Assembly: GCA_030148745.1 (NCBI GenBank)
Contig: JASBSV010000044.1
Location: 1 to 64,000, forward strand
Length of the DNA: 64,000 bases
From: Paracoccaceae bacterium
GTDB lineage: Bacteria > Pseudomonadota > Alphaproteobacteria > Rhodobacterales > Rhodobacteraceae
Reading direction: 5' to 3'
Every line of letters starts with the position of its first letter. Position 1 is the first letter of the stretch. The translations under genes were made by a program, and so were the position numbers. Shown one piece after another: positions 14,051-43,834 of this stretch. The notes under the pieces were generated by a model that was given only the letters and a program-made list of their open reading frames with translations, did not search any database and was not told where the DNA came from.

Positions 14051-14749
14051 ATGAATTTCGACTTTCTCTATTTCCTCGCTCAGCCGTGGTTTGTCATTCC
14101 ATGGTATGGGTTTGGCATCCTCGCCGCGGCCTGGTCGGTCTATGATATGCTGATGGTCAACACGCAGGTGAATGCGCCGCTAAAGGCGGCCTGGCCGATC
14201 ATCATCGTGTTCTTCTCGGTTCTGGGGCTGGCCTTCTATTTCTGGACCTGCCGTCCGCCCGGGGTGGCCACGATGAATGAGGCGCGCAAAGAGGAGGTTC
14301 ACCACGACTATGTCGACAACCTGTTTTTCAAGACCACCGGCGCGCTGATCCATTGCGTTGGTGGCGACGGCCTGGGCATCATGACGGCGATGGTGGCGCT
14401 GCGGCTGATCGGGGTCAGCTTCTGGGTCGAGTTCTGGATTGAATATGTCGTCGGCTTTGCCTTTGGCTGGCTGATCTTTCAGCTCTGGGCGTTTTTGCTG
14501 CATGGCAATTCGCTGGGCGAGGCGCTGTTCAAAGCCTTCCGGGCCGAGTTTTTCTCGATGATGACAGTGATGATCGGCATGGGGCTGGTGATGGCGAATG
14601 TCACCCCCAAACTGGTGGGCGAGCCGCCGACGCCCGACATGGCGGCCTTCTGGGGTTTTTCGGCCTTTGGCCTGCTGGTCGGCACGGTGCTGACAGTGCC
14701 GGTGAACCTGGCCCTGATCAAACTGGGGTGGAAAAATGGCATGGCTTGA
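14051..14749 (+). CDS. DUF4396-like multi-TM membrane protein
   Basis: MNFDFLYFLAQPWFVIPWYG...KTTGALIHCVGGDGLGIMTAM...GFAFGWLIFQLWAF; several TM helices. Confidence 0.7.
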   Translation: MNFDFLYFLAQPWFVIPWYGFGILAAAWSVYDMLMVNTQVNAPLKAAWPIIIVFFSVLGLAFYFWTCRPPGVATMNEARKEEVHHDYVDNLFFKTTGALIHCVGGDGLGIMTAMVALRLIGVSFWVEFWIEYVVGFAFGWLIFQLWAFLLHGNSLGEALFKAFRAEFFSMMTVMIGMGLVMANVTPKLVGEPPTPDMAAFWGFSAFGLLVGTVLTVPVNLALIKLGWKNGMA

Positions 14750-14900
14750 ACTGGCATTCTCGATGACCTCGATCCTGCTGATGCAGGCGATGACCGGCCA
14801 CGTCAATGAGCGTAGGCTGGGCGAAAAAATCTATAATAAAATATCATTTATTAAACACAAACAGGGATTTGAAGATGACGGGGACAAGCCGGGGATCTAG
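14736..14900 (+). CDS. Putative 54-aa small ORF overlapping both neighbours
   Basis: ATG at 14736 inside the end of the upstream gene: MAWLELAFSMTSILLMQAMTGHVNERRLGEKIYNKISFIKHKQGFEDDGDKPGI*; hydrophobic N-term; below the ORF-track cutoff. Confidence 0.35.
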   Translation: MAWLELAFSMTSILLMQAMTGHVNERRLGEKIYNKISFIKHKQGFEDDGDKPGI

Positions 14901-16380
14901 CGATTATCAACAGGAATTTAATGCCTCGCAGCTGATCGAGCCTATTGCCGATTACGATGACCGGGCTGCGCGCGTGTGGCTTTACAGCTCGCTCTTCTGG
15001 CTGATGTTTGTAACCCTTGTCGGTCTGACCATTGCAACCGAACTGATCACGCCCAATCTTTTCGGCGGGATCCCCTATCTGCTGTTCAGCCGGATCCGCC
15101 CTATTCACGTCAACGGCGTGATTTTTGCCTGGCTTACGATGATGTATTTCGGCGGAGCCTTCTATGTTCTGCCCCGGCTGCTGGGATTGCGCGCAATGTG
15201 GGGTGAAGGGGTCGCGGTCTGGATGGGCTGGGCCTGGAACCTTGCTTTGATCACCGGTTTTGCCGGGCTTTCGATGGGCTATACCCAGGGGCGGGAGTAT
15301 ACCGAGTTGATCTGGCCCGTCGATGTGGCCGTGATCGCGGTGCTTTTGACGAATATCTTCATTATTCTGATGACGGTGCTGAACCGGCGGGTCAAACCGC
15401 TTTATGTGACGGTCTGGTGGGCTGTGGCCAGCCCGATCTGGCTGGCCGCGGATTATTTCATCGTTAATGTCATGTGGCGACCCGGAACGCTGTTGGGCAA
15501 CGGTGTGCCGGGGGCGAAACTTTCCGGTGCGCTTGAGGACCCGTTGGCCGACGGGATGCTGAACTGGTGGGGCAATCACAATCTGTTTGGTCTGTGGCTG
15601 ACGCCGATGATGGTGGCGCTTTTGTATTATTTCGTGCCCAAGATCACCCGCACGCCGCTCTACAGTCACACGCTGTCGCTGGTGTCGTTCTGGGGGATCG
15701 CCTTCTTTTATACCGGCGTCGGGCATCATCACCTGTTGCAGGCACCGATCCCGGGTTGGCTCAAGACCTTTGCCACGGTTAACAGCATCATGCTTCTGGT
15801 GCCGGTCTTTGCCTTTGTCGGAAACATCTGGCTGACGATGCGCGGAAACTGGGACAAGTTTTTCATCAACATGCCGCTGCGTTTCATGCTGACAGGCTTC
15901 ATCTTTTATTTTCTGGTCAATGTTCAGGGATCCTTCATGGCCGTGCCGGCCTTTAACAAGATGATCCATTTCACCAATTTCATTGTCGCCCATGCGCATC
16001 TTGCGCTCTTGGGTGCCTTTACCTTCGTGGGGATCGGGCTGATCGACTATATGGTTCCGCAACTGGTCCGCCGTCCGATCTATAGCCGCAAATTATCGGA
16101 ATGGACCTATTGGTTGTTGCTGGTGGGATTTTTCGGGTTCTTCTGGGTCCTGACTATTGCCAGTTTCCTTCAGGGGCAAAGCTGGGCCCAGAGCGCGCCT
16201 GAGGTAAATGTGTTGTCGATGCTCAGGCCGCATTTCATCGGTCGCGCCACATTTGGCGCATTGATGGTCTTTTCAACCTTTGTACTGGCCTGGAACGTTC
16301 TGGCGACGATCTTCACCGATACCAGCGCCGGCACCAAAATGGCGTTTCGCCGTGCCGTTGCACCGCAGCCGGGAGAGTGA
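14875..16380 (+). CDS. CcoN-like (C-family) heme-copper oxidase catalytic subunit I
   Basis: RPIHVNGVIFAWL, NWWGNHNLFGLWLTP (CuB His), FFYTGVGHHHLLQ (Tyr and His-His), HFTNFIVAHAHLALLG (heme His pair). Confidence 0.88.
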   Translation: MTGTSRGSSDYQQEFNASQLIEPIADYDDRAARVWLYSSLFWLMFVTLVGLTIATELITPNLFGGIPYLLFSRIRPIHVNGVIFAWLTMMYFGGAFYVLPRLLGLRAMWGEGVAVWMGWAWNLALITGFAGLSMGYTQGREYTELIWPVDVAVIAVLLTNIFIILMTVLNRRVKPLYVTVWWAVASPIWLAADYFIVNVMWRPGTLLGNGVPGAKLSGALEDPLADGMLNWWGNHNLFGLWLTPMMVALLYYFVPKITRTPLYSHTLSLVSFWGIAFFYTGVGHHHLLQAPIPGWLKTFATVNSIMLLVPVFAFVGNIWLTMRGNWDKFFINMPLRFMLTGFIFYFLVNVQGSFMAVPAFNKMIHFTNFIVAHAHLALLGAFTFVGIGLIDYMVPQLVRRPIYSRKLSEWTYWLLLVGFFGFFWVLTIASFLQGQSWAQSAPEVNVLSMLRPHFIGRATFGALMVFSTFVLAWNVLATIFTDTSAGTKMAFRRAVAPQPGE

Positions 16381-17825
16381 TGATGAGCGATCAGGAAAAC
16401 CGTATTCCCGAACACCCGCCGCTGCCCGACGATATTCCGCAATCCAGCCGCAGGCGGCGCATGCTGATGACGCCGCAGATGGTGGTGATCGGCGGGCTGC
16501 TGGCATTTTTTACGGTCGTGTTTTCGGTCGTCATCATGCCAACGGCTACCTATAAACCGGCGATTTCCGACAACTGGCTGCCGCTATCGGATGCGGCGGT
16601 GAACGGACGGGCGATCTATCTTTCGAACGGATGCGTCTACTGTCATAGCGGCTTTAGCCGGCCGCAGGATGTCTTTGCCGGTTCTTCGGCGCTTTATGCG
16701 CGTGCATCGCAGCCCGGCGACTATCGCGGGGTCAGCCAAAGCCCCAATACTTTAGGATCGGTGCGCACCGGGCCGGATATGTCCAACCAGGGCGGGATGC
16801 ATCCCGATGGCTGGCACCGGTCGCACTATTGGAACCCGCGCAGCACCACGCCGATGTCGATTATGCAGCGCTTCAACTTTCTGTCTCAGGATGATCTGGA
16901 CCTGCTGATCAGCTTTACCCAAAGCCAGGGTGGCAAGCTTGCGGCGCTGCGCTATGCCGCGACGCGGACCGGCAATTATCTGATGCGGCTGAATACCGGC
17001 AAAGCGACCCTTGACGAGCCGGATGCGCCGGTTGCCGATCTGGTGGCGCAGGAGCGCGCAAGCGGCGTTTTGCGGCCCCAGGGCAAGCCGATGGATAAGG
17101 CGCCCAGCGGGATGAGCTGGATGGGCGTCTGGCATATGAACAGCTTCTCGCGCTCCTACTGGCTGACCGACAACCCTCTGGAGCTTAACGAGGGAAACCT
17201 AATGCGCGGCAAGGCGACCTATCTTCAGCGTTGTTCGGGGTGCCATGGCGCCAAGGGGGACGGCAAGGGCCCGGGAGCCGAGCGCCTCAGGGTCAAGCCT
17301 TTTGATTTCACCAAACCCACGCTGGCCGACGATTCAGGAACATCCAGCGGGATGATGTACCACCGGCTTTTGACGGCAGGACCAGGCACGGCGATGGAAA
17401 ATTTCGGAACCCGCCTGTCGGTCAACGAGATCTGGAGCGTGGTGATGTTTCTGCGCACCATTCCAAACGGCGGTCTGGAAGAGACGCTGCCCACCGTCGA
17501 CATGTACGAACGCTGGAACCCGCCGGAAAGCCAGCTGCGTTACATGCAGGAAAATCCGATAGAAGAGATGTATTCCGATCTGCCGCAAACGGATGACCCG
17601 TTTGAACAGGCTGCGCGCTGGATCGCGCCGGGAATGGCGCAAAGCGATATGGTCTATGTGGGTGGCAAGCTTGCGATCACACTGGAACGGCTGGCCGGCG
17701 TTATACGCTCTGAATACGGCCGGATCGTCAAAACCGCTTATGATGACGCAAAAAAGCGGGGTGAGGACCTGCCGCCCCTGGCACAGATCATGGATACAAA
17801 GGGGATGATTTTTTATGGACCGTAA
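16377..17825 (+). CDS. CcoO-like cytochrome c fused to a C-terminal cytochrome c domain (di-heme)
   Basis: N-terminal TM, CVYCH in CcoO-like context (NGRAIYLSNGCVYCHSGFSRPQD...RTGPDMSNQGG...WHRSHYWNPRSTTPMSIM), then second heme motif CSGCH. Confidence 0.85.
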   Translation: MMMSDQENRIPEHPPLPDDIPQSSRRRRMLMTPQMVVIGGLLAFFTVVFSVVIMPTATYKPAISDNWLPLSDAAVNGRAIYLSNGCVYCHSGFSRPQDVFAGSSALYARASQPGDYRGVSQSPNTLGSVRTGPDMSNQGGMHPDGWHRSHYWNPRSTTPMSIMQRFNFLSQDDLDLLISFTQSQGGKLAALRYAATRTGNYLMRLNTGKATLDEPDAPVADLVAQERASGVLRPQGKPMDKAPSGMSWMGVWHMNSFSRSYWLTDNPLELNEGNLMRGKATYLQRCSGCHGAKGDGKGPGAERLRVKPFDFTKPTLADDSGTSSGMMYHRLLTAGPGTAMENFGTRLSVNEIWSVVMFLRTIPNGGLEETLPTVDMYERWNPPESQLRYMQENPIEEMYSDLPQTDDPFEQAARWIAPGMAQSDMVYVGGKLAITLERLAGVIRSEYGRIVKTAYDDAKKRGEDLPPLAQIMDTKGMIFYGP

Positions 17826-18129
17826 TCAAAAATCCACGCGATACACCGTCGCCTTTTATGCTTTTACCGCCCTTCTCGGTCAAACCGGCGCGGCACTGGC
17901 CAGCGCTTCGCCCGAGGGCGGAGAGTTCGTCATGGCCGATTGGATGCTACTGTCGTTTCTTGCCTTTTCGGGGGCCGCTCTTGTCGTCTTTCTGGTGGCG
18001 CTCAGGCGCGGGATGTTCAGCCGGATGGAAGAGGCCAAATACTATCTTTTGCGCGTCGAAGAGCCGGATTTTTATACACCAGATTGGATAAGGGAGTTTG
18101 ACGATGATACCCAGCATCCCAACCGGTAG
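17815..18129 (+). CDS. Small membrane protein of oxidase cluster
   Basis: 104 aa; signal/TM then WMLLSFLAFSGAALVVFLVALRRGMFSRMEEAKYYLLRVEEPDFYTPDW; start overlaps upstream stop. Confidence 0.7.
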   Translation: MDRNQKSTRYTVAFYAFTALLGQTGAALASASPEGGEFVMADWMLLSFLAFSGAALVVFLVALRRGMFSRMEEAKYYLLRVEEPDFYTPDWIREFDDDTQHPNR

Positions 18130-18460
18130 CGACCCGGCTACGGCCGCGGCTGTCAACCGCTATATCATGGCCCAATATATGGAACGGATTGCCCGGAACC
18201 GAACCGAAATCCGTTGGGAAGGGCCGATTTATACCCTGCTTTTTGCCGGCACGCTGATCCTGTTCTTTTTTGCCGTGGTCTTCTGGCTTCGGCCGGCGCG
18301 CGGTCTGCGCCCGGCGCTGATGGAGCTGACCTCTTTCGCCGGCCAGTTGACCGAACGTGTGGGCGAGCTTCGTCGTTTTGACGTGATCGCCTGGACGGTC
18401 GTGACAACCTATGCCGCCTATTTTGCGGTGAAGGCGATCCTTGTCGGCATAGTTTATTAG
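18104..18460 (+). CDS. Small membrane protein of oxidase cluster
   Basis: MIPSIPTGSDPATAAAVNRYIMAQYMERIARNRTEIRWEGPIYTLLFAGTLILFFFAVVFW...; two TM; overlaps upstream ORF; ORF track start 18098. Confidence 0.7.
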   Translation: MIPSIPTGSDPATAAAVNRYIMAQYMERIARNRTEIRWEGPIYTLLFAGTLILFFFAVVFWLRPARGLRPALMELTSFAGQLTERVGELRRFDVIAWTVVTTYAAYFAVKAILVGIVY

Positions 18461-18477: not shown

Positions 18478-18786
18478 ATGGCCTATGGACATTCCTTCAG
18501 TCACGTCACGACCTTTTCGGTGCCGCGCGATCAATGGCCCCGCCTGCAACCTCTGCTCGAGAGCTGGAAGGCGCTGTTACAGGATCTGCCGGGACTTGCG
18601 GGCAGCGATGTGACGGCACATCAGGCCGGCAACGGCGATCTGCGCTGTCACATACGCGTCTCATGGCTCTATCGTGAACAGCTTGACGAATTTCTTGAAA
18701 GTGAGTGGGAGACCGGTCGCCTGATCAGCCGCGCCCAGGCCGGGCTTTACGATGTCCATGCGGAAAAATTCGAACATTTTATCTGA
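18478..18786 (+). CDS. Small soluble conserved-looking protein of oxidase cluster
   Basis: 102 aa MAYGHSFSHVTTFSVPRDQWPRLQPLLESWKALLQDLPGLAGSDV...; RBS-like aaagcggagga upstream. Confidence 0.65.
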   Translation: MAYGHSFSHVTTFSVPRDQWPRLQPLLESWKALLQDLPGLAGSDVTAHQAGNGDLRCHIRVSWLYREQLDEFLESEWETGRLISRAQAGLYDVHAEKFEHFI

Positions 18787-18808: not shown

Positions 18809-19009
18809 ATGACCCAAGCCTCCGATGTATCGCCCCGCGATCCGGCAACCCATTCGAGCGCAGTGGAACGCAAGCGCTCGTTCGAGGCTGAAGATGGCCG
18901 CTGGGAGCGGCGCCAGCAATGGCGCGACTGGATGATCCTGTTGGTCATGATTGCGTTATCTCTTGGATATCACATGACAATTTATGCTTTAGAGCCAGGT
19001 TTGAGATAG
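18809..19009 (+). CDS. Small single-TM protein of oxidase cluster
   Basis: 66 aa, charged N-term then DWMILLVMIALSLGYHMTIYALEPGLR; RBS aaaggtgagga upstream. Confidence 0.65.
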   Translation: MTQASDVSPRDPATHSSAVERKRSFEAEDGRWERRQQWRDWMILLVMIALSLGYHMTIYALEPGLR

Positions 19010-19011
19010 CC

Positions 19012-20985
19012 ATGCAGGTCGAGAATATATCCAACATAGACGCGCTGTTATTTGTGCTGGGGCTTGTCGCGGTCTCGATCCTGATCTTTGTGATGATCCC
19101 GCGCGCCGATGCGCCGGCCCGGCCCGATGTTTTTGACGACGCCGCGATCACCGCGCATGACGCCGCGCTGCCGAAGTACCTTCTGACGGCGGCGCTGGCT
19201 TTGGTGGCCGGGGCGCTGCATCTGGCGATCAAGTCGATACCTCCGGTCGCCGCCTGGCTTGCCGAGGCGGGCCGCGGCGGGCATCTGGCGGCGAATATCG
19301 CCTATAGCCACATGATTATCGTGATGGGCGGCACCATCGCGGTCACCGGGCTGACCTGGTATGTTCTGCCGCGCGTTCTGCGCCGCCCGCTATACAGCGG
19401 GACGCTCGCGCATCTGGCATTCTGGGCCACGGTGGCCGGGGCCGGCGGCTTTTATCTCGTCAATCTGTCTGGCGGGGTGATCATGGGCGCGATGGTGCAT
19501 GGCGGCATGACCGAGGCTCAGGCCTCGGATACTTTGGGTTTGTGGCGCGCGCTGCCGACCGCCGCGGCAGCGGCTTTGATGGGGCTGGGTTACTGGATCT
19601 TTGTGGTCAATGTTCTGGTGACATGCTGGCAGGGACGCCGAAGCGCGGTTCCGCAGCCATTTGGCCATCTGGCCAAGTTTTTCGTGCTGGGAACGCTGGG
19701 GCTGTTGATCGGCACGGTGCAGGGCGTATTGCAGGTGGTGCCTGACAACGAGGACTGGCTTGCCGCAGCCGGTCAGGCAGGGCGCTATATCGATCCGATC
19801 TCGCATGCCCATATCAATCTTCTGACCGGTGTGATGATGCTGGCTGCGGGCATCCTGTTCTATCTTCTGGGCTCGCAGGGCGATACGGCCCCCGACCGGC
19901 GCCGCGCAAATCTGGTGTTCTGGACGCTTGGGCCGGGCTCGCTGGCGCTTTATCTGTCATTCCTGACGCTTGGCCTGCGCGAGGGCGACCTGATCGTCAC
20001 CCGTGGTCTGAGCTTTGCCGAAGCGGTCGCACGTCTGGGTGTTTGGCACGGCATACCGCTGGCTGTCAGCGGTATGGTGGTGCTTGCAGGCCTGTGGACG
20101 CTGTTTGCGACGATTTTGCGCCGTCTTGTGCAACAGATCGCCGGGCTGCCCGGGGCGGCGCTTGTATGTCTTGGGGTTGTGGTTTTGTTCATCGGCACGC
20201 TTCAGGGCGGCGTCCAGATCCTGCCTGCGGTCAAGATGTGGATGGCCGGCGCACAAATCGGCGGGCAGGAAATTGCCCGCACGCATGCGCAGTTCAACAT
20301 GCTTGGCGGCGTTTTGCCGGTCCTGCTGGGCGCCTCGATGATGATCGGGCGGCCGTTTCTGGGCGCGCCGCCGCCGCATGCACTGGGCCATCGCATGGCG
20401 CTGCTGATCGGCGCGGGCGCGGGGCTTTATTATGTCGCCTCGATGGGCGCGGCGTTTGCGATGGCGCGCGCTGAACACGGCACGATCGAGCCGCAGACGG
20501 CTATGGCGCTTCGGTCCATGGCGGCGCCGGTGATCATTGGCGGCGCTTTGCTCTATGCGCTGGCGCTGGCCATTCTGGTGCGGTTCATATGGCGATCGAC
20601 GCGCGGCTACCGCGCGTTGGCATGGCATCGTTTCAAGGCCGAACTGCTGCGCCATGACGCCCCGCAACAGCCATGGCGCGCACGGGTATCATTAGCCGGG
20701 CTTTTGGTGCCAGAGGGGCTGGCCGCGCTGTTTGGCTTTCCCGGACTGGGCTGGATCCTGGGCGGACGGGCCCTGATCGGTGTTCCGCTGATGTTTGGCG
20801 GGCCGGCGCTTGCCTGGGCGATCCTGCCGCTGATCTTTTCACCATATAGTCAGTTTGGCCGGCCCGATCTGGCATTGCCGGTGATCGAAGCTTACCTGTT
20901 GAGCAGTGCCGCGCTCTCGGTTTTGGCTCTCTGGTTTGTCCATTCTGTCGGGTCGGGCGCGGTTAAATCGAACAGCGCGCCGTAG
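19012..20985 (+). CDS. Large polytopic CcoN-related protein apparently lacking the CuB motif
   Basis: 657 aa; YSHMIIVMGG, SHAHINLLTG and THAQFNMLGG helices; no WWxxHN or HHH motif; starts 2 nt after the preceding stop. Confidence 0.75.
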   Translation: MQVENISNIDALLFVLGLVAVSILIFVMIPRADAPARPDVFDDAAITAHDAALPKYLLTAALALVAGALHLAIKSIPPVAAWLAEAGRGGHLAANIAYSHMIIVMGGTIAVTGLTWYVLPRVLRRPLYSGTLAHLAFWATVAGAGGFYLVNLSGGVIMGAMVHGGMTEAQASDTLGLWRALPTAAAAALMGLGYWIFVVNVLVTCWQGRRSAVPQPFGHLAKFFVLGTLGLLIGTVQGVLQVVPDNEDWLAAAGQAGRYIDPISHAHINLLTGVMMLAAGILFYLLGSQGDTAPDRRRANLVFWTLGPGSLALYLSFLTLGLREGDLIVTRGLSFAEAVARLGVWHGIPLAVSGMVVLAGLWTLFATILRRLVQQIAGLPGAALVCLGVVVLFIGTLQGGVQILPAVKMWMAGAQIGGQEIARTHAQFNMLGGVLPVLLGASMMIGRPFLGAPPPHALGHRMALLIGAGAGLYYVASMGAAFAMARAEHGTIEPQTAMALRSMAAPVIIGGALLYALALAILVRFIWRSTRGYRALAWHRFKAELLRHDAPQQPWRARVSLAGLLVPEGLAALFGFPGLGWILGGRALIGVPLMFGGPALAWAILPLIFSPYSQFGRPDLALPVIEAYLLSSAALSVLALWFVHSVGSGAVKSNSAP

Positions 20986-26609: not shown

Positions 26610-27359
26610 ATGACAGAGAATGCAATTGAATTTCGCGCACTGAGTCAGGCGTTCGGTAACTTCCAGGCGGTCAAGGCTTTGACCTTTGATGTCGCCGAGC
26701 GGGAAATATTCGGATTTCTGGGCCATAACGGCGCGGGGAAAACCACCACGATCCACATGCTGACCACTTTGGCGCGCCCCTCATCGGGAACCGCGCTGAT
26801 CAGCGGTCATGACATCGTCACCGATCCGTTGGGCGTGCGCCGCGAGATCGGTTATGTACCCGAAAACGTCCGGCTTTACGACACGCTTACCACTTGGGAA
26901 AATCTGGTCTTTTTCGCGCGGCTTTCGGGGCTGAGCGATGCAGAGGACCGGGTCAGCCAGGCGCTGGAGTTTCTGACCATAACCGATCTGCGCGACCGCC
27001 GTGTTGGCGAGTTTTCCAAAGGGATGCGCCAGCGCGTCGGCCTGGCCCAGGCGATCCTGCATCATCCCAAGGTCCTGTTTCTGGACGAGCCTTCCTCGGG
27101 GCTTGACCCGATGGGCATGAAGATGCTGCGCGATCTGATCGTGCGGCTGAATGACGAGTGGAACATGACGATCTTCATGAATACCCACCTGATCAGCGAG
27201 ATCGCCAAGACCTGCACCTCGATCGGCGTGCTGAGCCACGGTCAGCTTGTTTATCACGACACCATCGAGGCGGTGACACAACGCTTTGGCGATGATCGCT
27301 CGCTCGAAGAGCTTTACCTGTCGGTCGCCCCGGCGCTCGAGACCGAGGAGGCCGCCTGA
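26610..27359 (+). CDS. ABC transporter ATP-binding protein (NosF-like)
   Basis: Walker A GHNGAGKTT, signature FSKGMRQR, Walker B LFLDEPSSGLDP. Confidence 0.92.
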   Translation: MTENAIEFRALSQAFGNFQAVKALTFDVAEREIFGFLGHNGAGKTTTIHMLTTLARPSSGTALISGHDIVTDPLGVRREIGYVPENVRLYDTLTTWENLVFFARLSGLSDAEDRVSQALEFLTITDLRDRRVGEFSKGMRQRVGLAQAILHHPKVLFLDEPSSGLDPMGMKMLRDLIVRLNDEWNMTIFMNTHLISEIAKTCTSIGVLSHGQLVYHDTIEAVTQRFGDDRSLEELYLSVAPALETEEAA

Positions 27360-28309
27360 TGCCTGCATCCATTTCGGGTGACGGCGCACGGGTCATCGCG
27401 CGCCAGTCGCTGCTTTTCATATTTCGCGAACGGACGGTGGCGCTTCTGGCCGGTCTTTTCGTGATCCTTGTTCTGATCTCGGCCTATCTGGGATGGTCTG
27501 CCACCAGCACGGTGAACGCGATCTATGCCGATGCGGTCGTTTACCTCAAAGGGGTGGGCCAGCCGGTGCCGCCAAATCCGGTCAACGACATCTCGCCCCT
27601 GTCGCTGATGCGCAATATGTCGATCTACGTCAGTCTTATCGGCGCGCTATCGGCCATCGTGATCGGTTATCAGCTGATCGCGGCGGACCGCAAATCGGGG
27701 GTTGTGCCGCTGCTTGGCTCGCGGCCATTCGAACGCGCGACCTATGCGCATGGCAAGATCCGCGCGCTGGTGATGGCCGTTGCCGGCCTGATGCTGGTGG
27801 CTGCGGTCATCGCGGTGGCGACCTTTATCATTCTGCCAACCAACCCGCTGGGCGCGGTCGGCTGGATCAGCCTGTTCACTTTCTTTGGTCTGGCCTTCGT
27901 CTATATGCTGATGTTCGGCCTTCTGGCGATGGCCACCGCCGCCTGGGCGCGTTCGGAATCGGTGGGGCTTTTGCTGCCGGTGACCGTCTGGCTGACGGTA
28001 ACCTTCATCCTGCCTTCACTGACCTCGAACATTCACCCGACCGCCGCGATCAACCCGATTTCGGCGCTGGCGCCGCCACCTGACACTGGTTTCTTTCACT
28101 GGACCGGCTGGCTTTTCGGGCCGATCTCGATCGCCGAAAGCTTCAAATACCTGTCGGCCGGCCTTCTGGACTATCTGCCGGCCACGGCAATCAATCACTC
28201 GATGGTTCCCCCGCTGCCCGATCTTCTCTTGGCCCTTACAGGCTCGGCTGTGCTGGCGGTGCGGGCGCTGATGACCATGGATATGACCCGGGGAGATTAC
28301 AATGCTTAG
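27359..28309 (+). CDS. ABC transporter permease (NosY/ABC-2 like)
   Basis: ABC-2 type multi-TM protein; overlaps upstream ATPase gene. Confidence 0.82.
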   Translation: MPASISGDGARVIARQSLLFIFRERTVALLAGLFVILVLISAYLGWSATSTVNAIYADAVVYLKGVGQPVPPNPVNDISPLSLMRNMSIYVSLIGALSAIVIGYQLIAADRKSGVVPLLGSRPFERATYAHGKIRALVMAVAGLMLVAAVIAVATFIILPTNPLGAVGWISLFTFFGLAFVYMLMFGLLAMATAAWARSESVGLLLPVTVWLTVTFILPSLTSNIHPTAAINPISALAPPPDTGFFHWTGWLFGPISIAESFKYLSAGLLDYLPATAINHSMVPPLPDLLLALTGSAVLAVRALMTMDMTRGDYNA

Positions 28310-29285
28310 TACCACAACTCCGGTCGGCGCGATTGCGCGCAAGGATGTGACCGATGTTCTGCGTGATCGCTTCATCATCATAGTCATGGCCTTTCTTGCC
28401 GTGGCTGCCATGACCTCGCTGGTGACGGGGGCAATCGCCCTGGCCACCGACGTGGCAACCTATAACGACGCAAAGGCAACGCTGCTGGCGCTTGGAAAAT
28501 CGCTCGACAGTATTGCCGCGCCCGAATTTTACCCGCTGAAGCTTTTGCGGGGTGCGATCGAGCAGATCGAGATCATCGGCGCCGTCTTGGGCATTCTGGC
28601 TGGTTTCCGCGCTGCAGTAAGCGAGCGGGGGCGCCAGACGCTGGCCCTGATCATGACGCGCCCGATACGGCAATGGCAGTTTCTGGCAGGCAAATTCGTG
28701 GCCGGTGCGGTTGTTCTTTCGGTCGGGCTTCTTGCAGTGTTCGGGCTGGCGGCCATCCTGCTTGATTTCGTCTCGGGCGTGGGCCTTGGGGCCTCGGATC
28801 TTCTGCGCATGGCGATTGTCTGGGTTGCGGCCTCGCTCTATGTGATTGCCTTTTTTGCCTTTACCTTTGTTGCCACGCTGTGGATGCGCCGCCCGGCCAA
28901 CGCCCTTCTGGTCAGTTTCGCCGTCTGGCTTCTGCTGGTGCTTATCGCGCCCCAGATCGGCGATACGCTGGACCCTGACAATCAGGTTGCGGGCGGTGTG
29001 TTCAAGCAGCTTCACGTCCCCAAGGCAGAGCAGCAGCGCATAGCGTCCGGCTATGCCACCTTCGAGACGATCCGAAACGGTATCGAGGTTTCTTCGATCA
29101 CCAAACACTTCGAACGTTTCAGCTTTGCGGTGCTGGGCATCAAGGACACCTACACCGGCAAGCCGCTCGGCCCGATCCTGGTCGAGAAACGCGGCGATTT
29201 TCTCTGGATCTTTTTCACCACGCTGGGGCTGACCGGGGTCATGTTTACCCGCCGCCTCAAATCCAACCGTCTGACCAAGGAGTAA
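28302..29285 (+). CDS. ABC transporter permease (NosY/ABC-2 like), second subunit
   Basis: GFRAAVSERGRQTLALIMTRPIRQWQFLAGKFVAGAVVL, ABC-2 permease pattern; overlaps upstream gene. Confidence 0.82.
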   Translation: MLSTTTPVGAIARKDVTDVLRDRFIIIVMAFLAVAAMTSLVTGAIALATDVATYNDAKATLLALGKSLDSIAAPEFYPLKLLRGAIEQIEIIGAVLGILAGFRAAVSERGRQTLALIMTRPIRQWQFLAGKFVAGAVVLSVGLLAVFGLAAILLDFVSGVGLGASDLLRMAIVWVAASLYVIAFFAFTFVATLWMRRPANALLVSFAVWLLLVLIAPQIGDTLDPDNQVAGGVFKQLHVPKAEQQRIASGYATFETIRNGIEVSSITKHFERFSFAVLGIKDTYTGKPLGPILVEKRGDFLWIFFTTLGLTGVMFTRRLKSNRLTKE

Positions 29286-29291
29286 GACCAA

Positions 29292-29921
29292 ATGAAACTG
29301 ATGACGAAAACCTCTCTTGTGGCAATGATCGCTGCGCTGGGCATCACCATGGCGGCCCCCGTCATGGCCGCAGGCAAGGATACCGATGGCGATGGCGTGC
29401 CTGACGCGGCCGAGCCGTTGATCCACACCGATCCGCAGAACGCCGATACCGATGGCGACGGGATGAACGACCTGAAGGACGACAACCCGGTCTTTGCCGC
29501 CGACCCGATCAAGGCAGATGGCGCCGCGACCCCTTTCACCATCAAAGAGGCGCTGGTTGAAAACAACTATGACTATGTGGCGCGCAAGGATGCCACCGAC
29601 CACCTGGAAGTGCAGGTCGCAAACCCCACGGGCAAGGATCTGACCAATTTCTCGATCTATTACACGATCAAGGATAAGGACACCGGCACGACCGAGGCCT
29701 ATTTCGCCAAACTTCCGGGCTTTACCGTGCCTGCGGGGGGCGATGCGCGCATCCATTTCGACGACAGTGGCGCGCCGGGCCATTTCCGGGCCAACCCCAA
29801 TTCGATCTATGCAACGACCAAATCGGCCAAGCTGTTCACGATCGAGCTGAAGGCGGATGGTTTCAAACCGCTCACGGTTGAGATCAACAAGGATGCCGGC
29901 GGCGCCGAGGCGGCTGACTGA
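29292..29921 (+). CDS. Secreted calcium-binding-like (DxDxDG / thrombospondin type 3-like) protein
   Basis: Signal peptide; KDTDGDGVPDAAEPLIHTDPQNADTDGDGMNDLKDDNP. Confidence 0.75.
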   Translation: MKLMTKTSLVAMIAALGITMAAPVMAAGKDTDGDGVPDAAEPLIHTDPQNADTDGDGMNDLKDDNPVFAADPIKADGAATPFTIKEALVENNYDYVARKDATDHLEVQVANPTGKDLTNFSIYYTIKDKDTGTTEAYFAKLPGFTVPAGGDARIHFDDSGAPGHFRANPNSIYATTKSAKLFTIELKADGFKPLTVEINKDAGGAEAAD

Positions 29922-30025
29922 TTGGAACCTTCGTGACAGGCAGGCACCGCTGCCCGAAAGGGTGGCAGGTGCCTGCAGCGACCTCGCGACAGCGAAAAAA
30001 CGAAGTTAGAACAGGAGGCTTCGGT

Positions 30026-30853
30026 ATGAGTGACACTCGAAATTTCGTATACGGGAGCAATGCGTCCTATATGGTCCATCCGGTCACGGGCGATAAAATT
30101 TACAACCGGGTTCCCCAGGTCATGTGAGATTTCTGGCTGGTCAAGCTTTTGGCGGTGACGGTCGGTGAAACGGCGGCCGATTTTCTGAACGCCAATCTGG
30201 GGCCGGGCCTTATCAACACGACCTACATCATGGGCACTCTGCTGATCGGCATGCTCATGCTGCAGTTTGCGCAAAAGAAATATGTGCCCTGGATCTACTG
30301 GGTCACCGTGGTTCTGGTCAGTGTCGTGGGCACGTTGATCACAGACTATCTGATTGATCAGGCCGGCTGGGCCTTCACCTCGACGACGCTGTTGTTCTCA
30401 ACCGCGCTGGCGGCGACCTTCGCGCTTTGGTACGCGGTGGAAAAAACCCTGTCGATCCACTCGATCTATACCTTCCGGCGTGAGGCGTTCTACTGGCTGG
30501 CGATCCTCTTTACCTTCGCTCTGGGTACGTCGGCCGGGGATCAGGCGGCAGAGGCTCTGGGGCTGGGTTATTTCTATTCGGGCGTGATGTATGCGGCGAT
30601 CATCGGTGTTATCACCGCGCTGTTTTATGCCGGTAAGATGAACGGCATTCTGGCCTTCTGGCTGGCCTATATCATCACCCGTTTGATGGGCGCCTCGTTC
30701 GGCGATCTGCTGTTGCAGCCCAAGGATGTGGGCGGTCTGGCCTTTGGTGCGGCAATGACCAGCGTGCTTTTTCTGGCCGCGATTTGCGCCACGATCATCT
30801 ATATGACGCTCACCAAGGACGGGCTTGAAAAAGTCCCGCAGGACGAACGTTAA
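30026..30853 (+). pseudogene. COG4705-like membrane protein gene split by an in-frame UGA (30125-30127)
   Basis: Strong RBS aggagg, ATG 30026: MSDTRNFVYGSNASYMVHPVTGDKIYNRVPQVM then TGA, continuing in the same frame DFWLVKLLAVTVGETAADFLNANLGPGL... to 30853. Confidence 0.7.
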
Positions 30854-30883
30854 ACCCCGCATTTCCAAGTAAGCCACTCACGG

Positions 30884-30912
30884 CCGCCGTCGGGAAACCG
30901 GCGGCGGTTTTT
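30884..30912 (+). terminator. Rho-independent terminator
   Basis: CCGCCGTCGG-GAAA-CCGGCGGCGG followed by TTTTT. Confidence 0.9.
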
Positions 30913-31064
30913 CGTTGCACGCCGATCACCCTTGCCGGTGGGCGCGGGCCGGGCAATTCACGAATTTTTTTGAGAAAAATCCGCAGTTTTTGATCTGGCT
31001 CAAGGCAGCGAGGGGCAAGAAATATTAAGTTGATATCAATCGTTAATAGTTGATGGAGGTTGAC

Positions 31065-31547
31065 ATGAACGGCACCAGAAGAATGATCGTAGCAGCGCTT
31101 GCCCTTTCCCCGGTGCTGGCGGCTTTGCCGGCGTCGGCGGATGCGGTAATCTCGGCTTCGCTTTGGGACAAACCGGGTATGGATATGGCCACCGGATTGG
31201 GCCATGGCATGGGCGGTGATATGTCCAAGGCGAATATGGGCATCACGCTGAGCAAATCGGAAGTTGCCGCAGGCTCGGTGACGCTGAACGCGACCAATGA
31301 CAGCAAGGACATGATCCACGAAATGGTCGTCGCGCCGCTGACCTCACCGGATGAGGTGCTGGCCTATAAGGCCGATCTGGACAAGGTCGATGAGGACGCC
31401 GCGGTGCACCTTGGCGAAGTCGCCGAGCTGGAGCCGGGACAGAAAGGCGCGCTGACGATCAACCTCAAGCCCGGACAGTATATCCTCTATTGCAATATTC
31501 CGGGTCACTACATGGCCGGCATGTGGACGGTGCTGACCGTCAAATAG
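31065..31547 (+). CDS. Secreted cupredoxin (plastocyanin-like)
   Basis: Signal peptide; type 1 Cu ligands in MIHEMVV and YCNIPGHYMAGMWTVLTV. Confidence 0.88.
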   Translation: MNGTRRMIVAALALSPVLAALPASADAVISASLWDKPGMDMATGLGHGMGGDMSKANMGITLSKSEVAAGSVTLNATNDSKDMIHEMVVAPLTSPDEVLAYKADLDKVDEDAAVHLGEVAELEPGQKGALTINLKPGQYILYCNIPGHYMAGMWTVLTVK

Positions 31548-40727: not shown

Positions 40728-41141
40728 CTAAAGTTCCAGCGCGTCCAGAACCGGGCAGTCAGGCACATCGCGGCCCGAACACTTCGAGGCGGTCTCGGCC
40801 AGCACCGCCTCGATCCGTTGCAGATCGGCGATCTTGGCACGCACATCCCTCAGGTGGTTTTCGGTGCGCGCCTGAACCTCGGCGCAGGTCTGGGTGCCGC
40901 CGTCGATCAGGGTCAGAAAACCGCGCACCTCTTCAAGGTTGAAGCCCAGCTCGCGCATCCGCATCACAAAGCGCAGCCGCGCGACATGGCTGGCGTCATA
41001 GACCCGGAAGCCGGCACTGGTGCGCGGCGGATCGGGCATCACGCCGATGGTTTCGTAATAGCGTATTGTTTCGAGGTTACAGCCCGTGGCCCGCGCCAGA
41101 GCGGCGCGCATCATCGGTTTTTGCGGCTTGATTTCGCCCAT
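40728..41141 (-). CDS. merR: Mercury-responsive MerR regulator
   Basis: MerR HTH, Cys residues TCAEV...KCSGRDVPDCPVLDAL, divergent from merT. Confidence 0.92.
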   Translation of the reverse strand: MGEIKPQKPMMRAALARATGCNLETIRYYETIGVMPDPPRTSAGFRVYDASHVARLRFVMRMRELGFNLEEVRGFLTLIDGGTQTCAEVQARTENHLRDVRAKIADLQRIEAVLAETASKCSGRDVPDCPVLDALEL

Positions 41142-41155
41142 TCCGGATATACCCC

Positions 41156-41186
41156 TTGCGCCTGTAGTTAGTACAGACCCTATACA
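41156..41186 (+). promoter_or_regulatory. MerR-type promoter/operator with 19-bp spacer
   Basis: TTGCGC - CTGTAGTTAGTACAGACCC (19 bp, with dyad CTGTA-GTTAG-TACAG) - TATACA. Confidence 0.85.
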
Positions 41187-41223
41187 GACCGGGAATCAGT
41201 TGCAAGCAGGAGGCCAGACAACG

Positions 41224-41622
41224 ATGAGCATAGTTGACGATACCCAAGCCCAGACCGGGCGCCAGTCCGGCGATACTGGCGGGCGGGTTGCCACGGTGGG
41301 CAGCCTTTTTGGCGCTTTGGCGATGACCTCCTGCTGTATTCTGCCGCTGGTTCTGGTCAGTTTCGGGGTTGGCGGTGTGTGGATCGCGCAGCTGACCGCG
41401 CTTTATGCCTATAAGTGGTACACGTTCAGCATTGCCGCGGCCTTCATCGGCTATGGGTTCTGGAAAGTGCATAAATCTCAGGCGGGCGAATGCAGCGACG
41501 GCGCTGCCTGCGCGCGCCCGGTCAACCGGCGGGTGATGAAAGCGGCGCTTTGGCTGGCCACCGCCGTCACCCTGATCGCGATCATCTTTCCCTATATCAC
41601 GCCCTACATCCTGAGCTTCTGA
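41224..41622 (+). CDS. merT: Mercuric ion transporter MerT
   Basis: MTSCCILPLVLVSFGVGGVWIAQLTALYAYKWY. Confidence 0.93.
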   Translation: MSIVDDTQAQTGRQSGDTGGRVATVGSLFGALAMTSCCILPLVLVSFGVGGVWIAQLTALYAYKWYTFSIAAAFIGYGFWKVHKSQAGECSDGAACARPVNRRVMKAALWLATAVTLIAIIFPYITPYILSF

Positions 41623-41638
41623 AGAAAGGAAGAACCAT

Positions 41639-41953
41639 ATGAAAGTCTTTACCGCAGCCGTTGTTGCCGCGCTTATGACCGCCGGGGCGGCCTCTGCCGC
41701 AGAGCGTCAGGCCAAGATCGAGGTCAGCGGCCTGACCTGCCCGTCGTGCCCCTATATCGCCGCCGAGGCGGTGAAATCGGTCGAAAGCGTCAAGATCGTG
41801 ACCGGCGATTATGACGAGGCAGCGCAGACAATTGTTTTCGACGTCACCTATGACGATGCCGTCACAACGCCCGAGACGATTGCCGAGGCATCGATGGATT
41901 ATGGCTATCCGGGCCGGGTTCTGCCCTCTGCGGCTTCGGCGTCGGGCTCGTGA
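41639..41953 (+). CDS. merP: Periplasmic mercury-binding protein MerP (HMA domain)
   Basis: Signal peptide; GLTCPSCPYIAAEAVKSVESV. Confidence 0.9.
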   Translation: MKVFTAAVVAALMTAGAASAAERQAKIEVSGLTCPSCPYIAAEAVKSVESVKIVTGDYDEAAQTIVFDVTYDDAVTTPETIAEASMDYGYPGRVLPSAASASGS

Positions 41954-42000
41954 TGCCGATCCCGCAAGGAAACTGAAAGATCCGGTAAGGACGTTTAAAA

Positions 42001-42384
42001 ATGAATGAGAAAACTCAACTGCGGCGCGGCCTGATAGGCAGCGTTCTGGCGGCGATTTGCTGTTTTACCCCGCTTTTGGTGGTCGTGGTCACGGGCGCGG
42101 GGTTGTCGGCGATTGTCGGCTGGCTGGATTACGCGCTGTTTCCGCTGCTTTTTGCCTCGCTCGGGCTGGTGGCCCATGCGCTCTGGCTGATGTCGCAAAA
42201 GCGCGGCCCGTCGCCCAAGGGGATCATTACGCTTTTGGTGCTGGCGCTGTCGGTCCTGCTGATCTGGCTCGAGTTTCGCTTTGCTCTGCGCATATCGGTC
42301 GCGGCGGCGCTGGCGGTGGCGCTTTATGGCTATTGGCTGCGGCGCGGGGCTGCGGCGCAGCCGGGGCCATCCGATACCTTTTGA
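42001..42384 (+). CDS. merF: Mercury transporter MerF
   Basis: AAICCFTPLLVVVVTGAGLSAIVGWLDYALFPLL. Confidence 0.9.
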   Translation: MNEKTQLRRGLIGSVLAAICCFTPLLVVVVTGAGLSAIVGWLDYALFPLLFASLGLVAHALWLMSQKRGPSPKGIITLLVLALSVLLIWLEFRFALRISVAAALAVALYGYWLRRGAAAQPGPSDTF

Positions 42385-42409
42385 ACATCCCAAACAGAAA
42401 GATCCGACG

Positions 42410-43834
42410 ATGAATGACCAATCGAAAATGCCGCAACATACCGCCTTTGACCTGATCGTTCTGGGGGCCGGCTCGGCCGGGTTTTCGGCGGCGATCACGG
42501 CGGCCGAAGCGGGGCATCGGGTGGCGCTGGTGGGCCATGGCACCATCGGCGGCACTTGTGTCAATGTCGGCTGTGTGCCGTCGAAATTCATGATCCGCGC
42601 CGGTGAGACCCAGCACAGCGCGGCGGCGGCCAGCCGCTTTGCTGGTATCACCGCCGAGGCGCATGTGACCGACTGGGCGGCGCTGGTTCAGGCCAAGCGC
42701 GATCTGGTCAGCGGCATGCGGCAAAAGAAATACGCCGATTTGCTGCCTGAATATCAGAACGTCACCTATATCGAAGGCTTTGCAAGGTTTGACGGCGATG
42801 CCATCGTGGTGGATAAGACGCGGCTGACGGCGCCTAAGGTCCTGATCGCCACCGGCGGGCGTCCGTCGGTCCCGCCGATTGCCGGGATCGAAACGGTCGA
42901 GACGCTGGACAGCACGTCCCTGCTGGAGCTTGAAGAGCTTCCGGCAAGCCTGACGGTTCTGGGCGGGGGCTATATCGGCGCTGAGCTGGCGCAGATGATG
43001 GCGCGCATGGGGGTGAAGGTGACGGTGATCTGCCGCTCGCACCTTTTGCCCGGGGCCGAGCCGGAGGTGTCGCAGGCACTGACCGAGGCTTTTGTCGCCG
43101 AAGGCATCACGCTTGAATGCGGCATCACCTATGACGCCTGCCGCCAGGACGCCGCGGGCGTGACGGTCTGTGTTAAGCGCGATGGCAAGCCGTTTGAAAT
43201 CACGTCCGAAAAGCTGGTGGTTGCGACGGGGCGGGTGGCCAATACCGAAGGCATGGGGCTGGCCGAGGCGGGCATCAATCTGGACCGGCGCGGCGCGATC
43301 ATCGTGGGCGACGATATGCAAAGCACCAGACCGGGGGTTTACGGCGCGGGCGATGTGACCAACCGCGATCAGTTCGTCTATATGGCGGCCTATGGCGCCA
43401 AGGTGGCGGTCAATAACGCCCTGGGGCTGGAGCCGATGCGCTATGACAACAGCGCCATGCCCTGGGTGGTGTTTTCCGACCCGCAGGTTGCCGGCGTCGG
43501 GCTGAGCGAGGCGCAGGCGCGCGCAGCCGGCCATGAGGTCAAAACCTCGGTTCTGGGGCTGGACAATGTGCCGCGTGCGCTGGCGGCGCTGGATACGCGC
43601 GGCCTGATCAAACTGGTGGCGGACGCCAAGACCGATCGCCTTTTGGGCGGGCAGATCATTGCGCCCGAAGGTTCGGACACGGTCCAGACACTGGCAATGG
43701 CGCTGAAGTTCGGCATGACCACCAAGGCGCTGGGCGAGATGATCTTTCCCTATCTGACAACGGTTGAGGGGCTGAAACTGGCCGCGCAGACCTTTGACAA
43801 GGATGTCGCCAAGCTGAGCTGCTGCGCAGGATAG
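42410..43834 (+). CDS. merA: Mercury(II) reductase
   Basis: GGTCVNVGCVPSK, C-terminal vicinal cysteines LSCCAG; no N-terminal HMA domain. Confidence 0.95.
   Translation: MNDQSKMPQHTAFDLIVLGAGSAGFSAAITAAEAGHRVALVGHGTIGGTCVNVGCVPSKFMIRAGETQHSAAAASRFAGITAEAHVTDWAALVQAKRDLVSGMRQKKYADLLPEYQNVTYIEGFARFDGDAIVVDKTRLTAPKVLIATGGRPSVPPIAGIETVETLDSTSLLELEELPASLTVLGGGYIGAELAQMMARMGVKVTVICRSHLLPGAEPEVSQALTEAFVAEGITLECGITYDACRQDAAGVTVCVKRDGKPFEITSEKLVVATGRVANTEGMGLAEAGINLDRRGAIIVGDDMQSTRPGVYGAGDVTNRDQFVYMAAYGAKVAVNNALGLEPMRYDNSAMPWVVFSDPQVAGVGLSEAQARAAGHEVKTSVLGLDNVPRALAALDTRGLIKLVADAKTDRLLGGQIIAPEGSDTVQTLAMALKFGMTTKALGEMIFPYLTTVEGLKLAAQTFDKDVAKLSCCAG

Follow-up and report, generated by a model that had tools for sequence, protein, structure and literature searches.

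What kind of protein is encoded by the reading frame at 19012-20985 of the window (the whole 64,000-nucleotide stretch analysed here), and what might it do behind genes for an oxidase-like enzyme? The forward-strand frame is a genuine ORF with a 657-aa product, and its start at 19012 is supported because the homologue in an Aurantimonas MAG (L007:8001-9971, 66% identical over 641 aa) opens at the same Met. An ATG further upstream, at 18919, is not taken as the start, given this homologue and the conserved 66-aa ORF that ends at 19009. Hydropathy places about 16 helices in the protein: a 12-helix core of three units, one helix before it and about three after (Table 1).

The first-pass annotation had described a tandemly duplicated protein, and the two segments it aligned (about nt 19678-19833 and 20158-20313, that is, residues 223-273 and 383-433) were correctly placed. 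We compared the units by BLOSUM62 local scores against 1000 shuffles that preserve composition in ten-residue windows. Units 1 and 2 scored 154 (null 41+-9) and units 2 and 3 scored 101 (null 39+-8), with none of the 1000 shuffles as high in either case; units 1 and 3, the weakest pair, scored 82 (null 46+-10), a value reached by 4 of 1000. Profile comparison with hhalign also recovered the repeats, at 4.7e-9 for units 1 and 2, 2.5e-7 for units 2 and 3 and 1.8e-4 for units 1 and 3 (uncalibrated pairwise values). Since the scores exceed the shuffles and hhalign agrees, the repeat is real. Its copy number has to be revised, because the upstream AYSHM helix, which had been seen as a separate third His helix, is the second helix of a full further copy; the protein is thus a triplication. 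The DUF4396 protein at 14051-14749 and the small cassette genes at 17815-18129, 18098-18460 and 18478-18786 were considered as extra units and rejected, as their comparisons with the units were negative.

Table 1. Features of the target protein and of its gene cassette (window coordinates; L007, Aurantimonas MAG).
Feature	Position	Strand	Basis
CcoN-like catalytic subunit, six His, no active-site Tyr (HHHLLQAPIPGW)	14806..16380	+	89% identical to L007:3858-5363
CcoO-like domain fused to CcoP-like c-type cytochrome, two CxxCH	16377..17825	+	79% identical to L007:5367-6806
Small membrane protein of cassette	17815..18129	+	55% identical to L007 counterpart; no family
Small membrane protein of cassette	18098..18460	+	65% identical to L007 counterpart; no family above cut-off
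102-aa cassette protein, no family	18478..18786	+	60% identical to L007 counterpart
66-aa protein with one TM helix, ending 2 nt upstream of target start	18809..19009	+	conserved counterpart, same place in L007
Target: three-unit heme-copper-oxidase homology protein, 657 aa	19012..20985	+	homology, repeats, start common to L007:8001
Extra N-terminal transmembrane helix (res 10-30)	19039..19101	+	hydropathy, loop charges
Unit 1 (res 50-212), 4 TM, His helix AYSH100M	19159..19647	+	hhalign to unit 2 and stand-alone unit; shuffles
Codon of His100, matched to CuB ligand in helix VI of CcoN	19309..19311	+	MAFFT; invariant in homologue
Unit 2 (res 213-375), 4 TM, His helix SH265AH267	19648..20136	+	hhalign, shuffles; MAFFT match to HAH/HVH of CcoN helix X
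Codons of His265-Ala-His267, matched to heme ligands in helix X of CcoN	19804..19812	+	MAFFT, homologue
Unit 3 (res 376-535), 4 TM, His helix TH425AQ	20137..20616	+	hhalign to unit 2 and stand-alone unit
Codon of His425	20284..20286	+	invariant in homologue; unit 2/unit 3 alignment
C-terminal extension, about 3 more TM helices (res 536-657)	20617..20982	+	hydropathy

The relation to CcoN claimed by the same annotation survives as homology and not as membership. The Pfam COX1 profile reaches the target at 34.1 bits against a cut-off of 34.8 (E=1.9e-8), as fits unit-repeat homologues of the whole superfamily; TIGR00780 (ccoN) gives no match to it, and phmmer of the target against the PDB returned chance matches to ribosomal proteins alone. 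The full six-His set of CcoN (helices II, VI, VII and X, for two hemes and CuB) is not found in the target. WWxxHN is absent, as had been noted, and there is no HH anywhere in the protein; the reported lack of a CuB motif likewise holds, with one exception: H100 is aligned to the His of CcoN helix VI, which is one of the three CuB ligands. With three homologous 4-TM units and homology to heme-copper oxidase subunit I, the features tested for that class, the protein is by its sequence a three-unit heme-copper-oxidase homology (HCOH) protein and not a CcoN. We take its kind to be the three-unit HCOH proteins that Pei, Li, Kinch and Grishin reportedly described in 2014, in which three 4-TM units, homologous to the thirds of the oxidase, form a 12-TM core. 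Their paper (Protein Sci 23:1220) is among those that PMC4602095 cites. Like the target, these combine such a core with a reduced His set and lack the CuB site. The target differs from them in that its repeats can still be detected by pairwise sequence comparison, in having four conserved helix-start His instead of two, in its extra N- and C-terminal helices, and in its operon with a Tyr-less CcoN. Against the CcoN of the cbb3 oxidase (3mk7), the target aligns at the HxH of helix X and at the His of helix VI, but the helix VII HH and WWxxHN are missing and sequence similarity is at superfamily level only.

Further evidence for this homology comes from single units encoded on their own. When another class of the phylum was searched with a profile built from the target and its L007 homologue, 43 of 78 genomes yielded stand-alone ORFs of 170-220 aa with four helices that match one unit. 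Going by its size and gene content, this class may be the Zetaproteobacteria. The stand-alone-unit profile matched target units 1, 2 and 3 (hhalign, 2.4e-21, 9.4e-23 and 2e-7) as well as helices IX-XII of canonical CcoN (3e-11), and one such protein (L043:5237-5818) matched the solved CcoN (3mk7) at helices IX-XII with 1.5e-6, along with extra, weak matches to the other two thirds. The COX1 match together with these links to CcoN establishes the homology of the target to oxidase subunit I, and because the stand-alone unit matches both, the repeats of the target are tied to the three-fold make-up of that subunit. The stand-alone proteins have the same unit, including an HAHxNLxGG helix, one to a gene, whereas the target holds three that are fused and diverged. 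Similar single-unit oxidase-homology proteins were seen in L039, L040, L041 and L045; in several genomes they adjoin a gene whose L043 member matches PF20603 (Bact_hydrolase), with c-type cytochromes nearby. Full-length relatives are far scarcer: the Aurantimonas homologue was the one found in genome contigs, in a scan with the reach of close relatives. The class (385 genomes), the family (101 genomes), the single other genome of the genus and the plasmid collection held no further copy, and the viral collection yielded nothing for the target, the stand-alone unit or CcoN.

In each unit the second helix has a His close to its beginning (YSH100M, SH265AH267, TH425AQ), and H425 pairs with H265 in the alignment of units 2 and 3. 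Judged from the loop charges, every His helix begins at the periplasmic face, just as in oxidases, which fits the oxidase topology. MAFFT set unit 1 against helices V-VIII and unit 2 against helices IX-XII of the operon CcoN, whose helix-VII HH pair is unmatched in the target; with this pair lost, a normal heme-copper centre is impossible. A reading with unit 1 as helices IX-XII is equally open for the unit order, because hhalign of unit 1 alone against the operon CcoN slightly prefers that region (5.2e-6 against 1.9e-5). In oxidases a pore lies between consecutive units, with the helix VI His on one side and the first helix X His on the other. By analogy the target may have two heme pores, H100/H265 and H267/H425, a proposal we put forward tentatively. 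That it binds heme at all appears probable: H100, H265, H267 and H425 are all invariant between homologues only 66% identical, a conservation that for the full-length protein is read from two sequences. The same invariance argues against a degenerate, heme-free oxidase-like protein serving as an assembly or structural factor, an idea that the missing CuB site and the reduced, uneven His set (1, 2 and 1 per unit) would suit and that we consider improbable.

AlphaFold models of the target with two homologues (mean pLDDT 41) and with CcoN V-XII fragments from the window and L007 (mean pLDDT 45) were both too low in confidence for His distances. Foldseek nevertheless ranked oxidase subunits I at the top for both (best 8smr_E, E=0.016, and 9g83_t, E=0.11), which lends mild support to an oxidase-like fold, the match of the second model being partly circular since that model was biased by its CcoN rows.

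The target is the last gene of a closely spaced cassette of seven, behind a CcoN, a CcoO/P fusion and four small genes. Six of the cassette genes are 55-89% identical to those of the Aurantimonas MAG, in the same order, and the 66-aa ORF, of a size easily missed by length filters, is kept in place. By look, the 102-aa protein at 18478-18786 resembles a small alpha-beta domain. The operon CcoN keeps all six His and has HHHLLQAPIPGW where 29 canonical relatives have HHLHYT, with Gln at the place of the helix-VII Tyr; the helix-VI Tyr is also absent. Helix VII of C-type oxidases holds a cross-linked Tyr that is absent from NO reductases (PMC3084760). It is possible that the enzyme encoded at 14806-16380 is a C-family NO reductase. 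A plasmid-borne CcoN of Azoarcus sp. KH32C (L009:8830-10455), 36% identical to the operon CcoN, is also without the Tyr.

The genome carries nirK (470 bits) and nnrS (367 bits), and the cNOR motif HLWVEG is absent from all six COX1-family proteins of this genome (87% completeness). A role of the operon in NO reduction is plausible, because its CcoN lacks the Tyr, nirK and nnrS are present and no cNOR motif was found. The sixth COX1-family protein, a distant one (L006, contig C28 of the same genome, 137 bits), has HNVHY and SLYHMFLE in place of the usual helix VI/VII motifs. Elsewhere in the window, ABC transporter genes (26610-29285), a TSP3-repeat protein, a DUF347 membrane protein and a cupredoxin (31050-31547) occupy 26610-31547, downstream of the cassette, and, on visual inspection, 40728-43834 resembles a mercury resistance cluster (MerR, MerP-/MerT-like and reductase-like ORFs).

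An association with NO could also mean that the target is an NnrS-like NO-tolerance heme protein, encoded with the reductase and acting outside its complex. HCOH proteins, NnrS included, are said to have been linked to NO by Pei et al. in 2014, and NnrS (PF05940) is presumably a 12-TM superfamily homologue that, like the target, lacks a normal heme-copper centre; the presence of nirK and nnrS would agree with such a role. However, PF05940 is not among the Pfam matches of the target at E<=1, which sets the target apart from NnrS, and the tight coupling to the oxidase genes in a conserved seven-gene order favours direct partnership, so that we regard an NnrS-like role as unlikely.

Direct partnership is the explanation we prefer, at a probability of roughly 55%: a three-unit homologue of subunit I that would serve as the heme-b partner of a Tyr-less cbb3-like reductase. 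Its repeats, homology and conserved operon are observed. The three 4-helix units would form a 12-helix core with oxidase topology, in which one or two b hemes would be held by the periplasmic-side H100, H265, H267 and H425; oxidase geometry would plausibly be copied, in that a shared pore would be faced by a His of one unit and, from the unit that follows, by the His in first position. The target, performing no oxygen chemistry itself, would pass electrons to the reductase or handle NO for it. Given its operon with an unusual oxidase-like enzyme, it is probably such a partner, or an electron-transfer or NO-handling heme protein, and not an oxidase; we hold the partner role to be somewhat better than an even bet, and within it electron transfer and NO handling are not separable from each other. 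The target diverges faster from its Aurantimonas counterpart than does the adjoining CcoN (66% against 89% identity), as would be expected of an accessory protein, and we count this against the best explanation.

The suggestion made with the first-pass annotation, a quinol-oxidising module, here with two b hemes feeding the reductase, draws on the same operon, on the up to two pores that can hold a His pair and on the otherwise unexplained extra C-terminal helices. Yet we identified no quinone-site motif in the target, and the fused CcoO/CcoP-like protein already provides c-heme electron entry, which makes a quinol module improbable. More speculative still, and to our minds a long shot, the target and the Tyr-less CcoN may constitute one complex in which a copper-free di-heme b barrel passes electrons to an NO-reducing C-family barrel. 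If so, the copper-free barrel would take electrons, for example from quinol, and the unit order would be a circular permutation, with unit 1 similar to helices V-VIII, unit 2 to IX-XII and unit 3 standing for I-IV.

Three ancestral copies of a 4-helix unit are presumed to have given rise to oxidase subunit I, and in oxidases these repeats have been almost erased. The three-unit HCOH kind is already known; what is new is the visible triplication and the operon with a Tyr-less CcoN. The single chain of the target still shows all three copies, and there is a relative in which one unit makes up a protein of its own; the target is thus a useful object for comparing heme binding by lone units, by triplets fused in one chain and by complete oxidases. 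In addition, its operon draws attention to a cbb3-like enzyme that lacks the catalytic tyrosine and is as yet uncharacterised.
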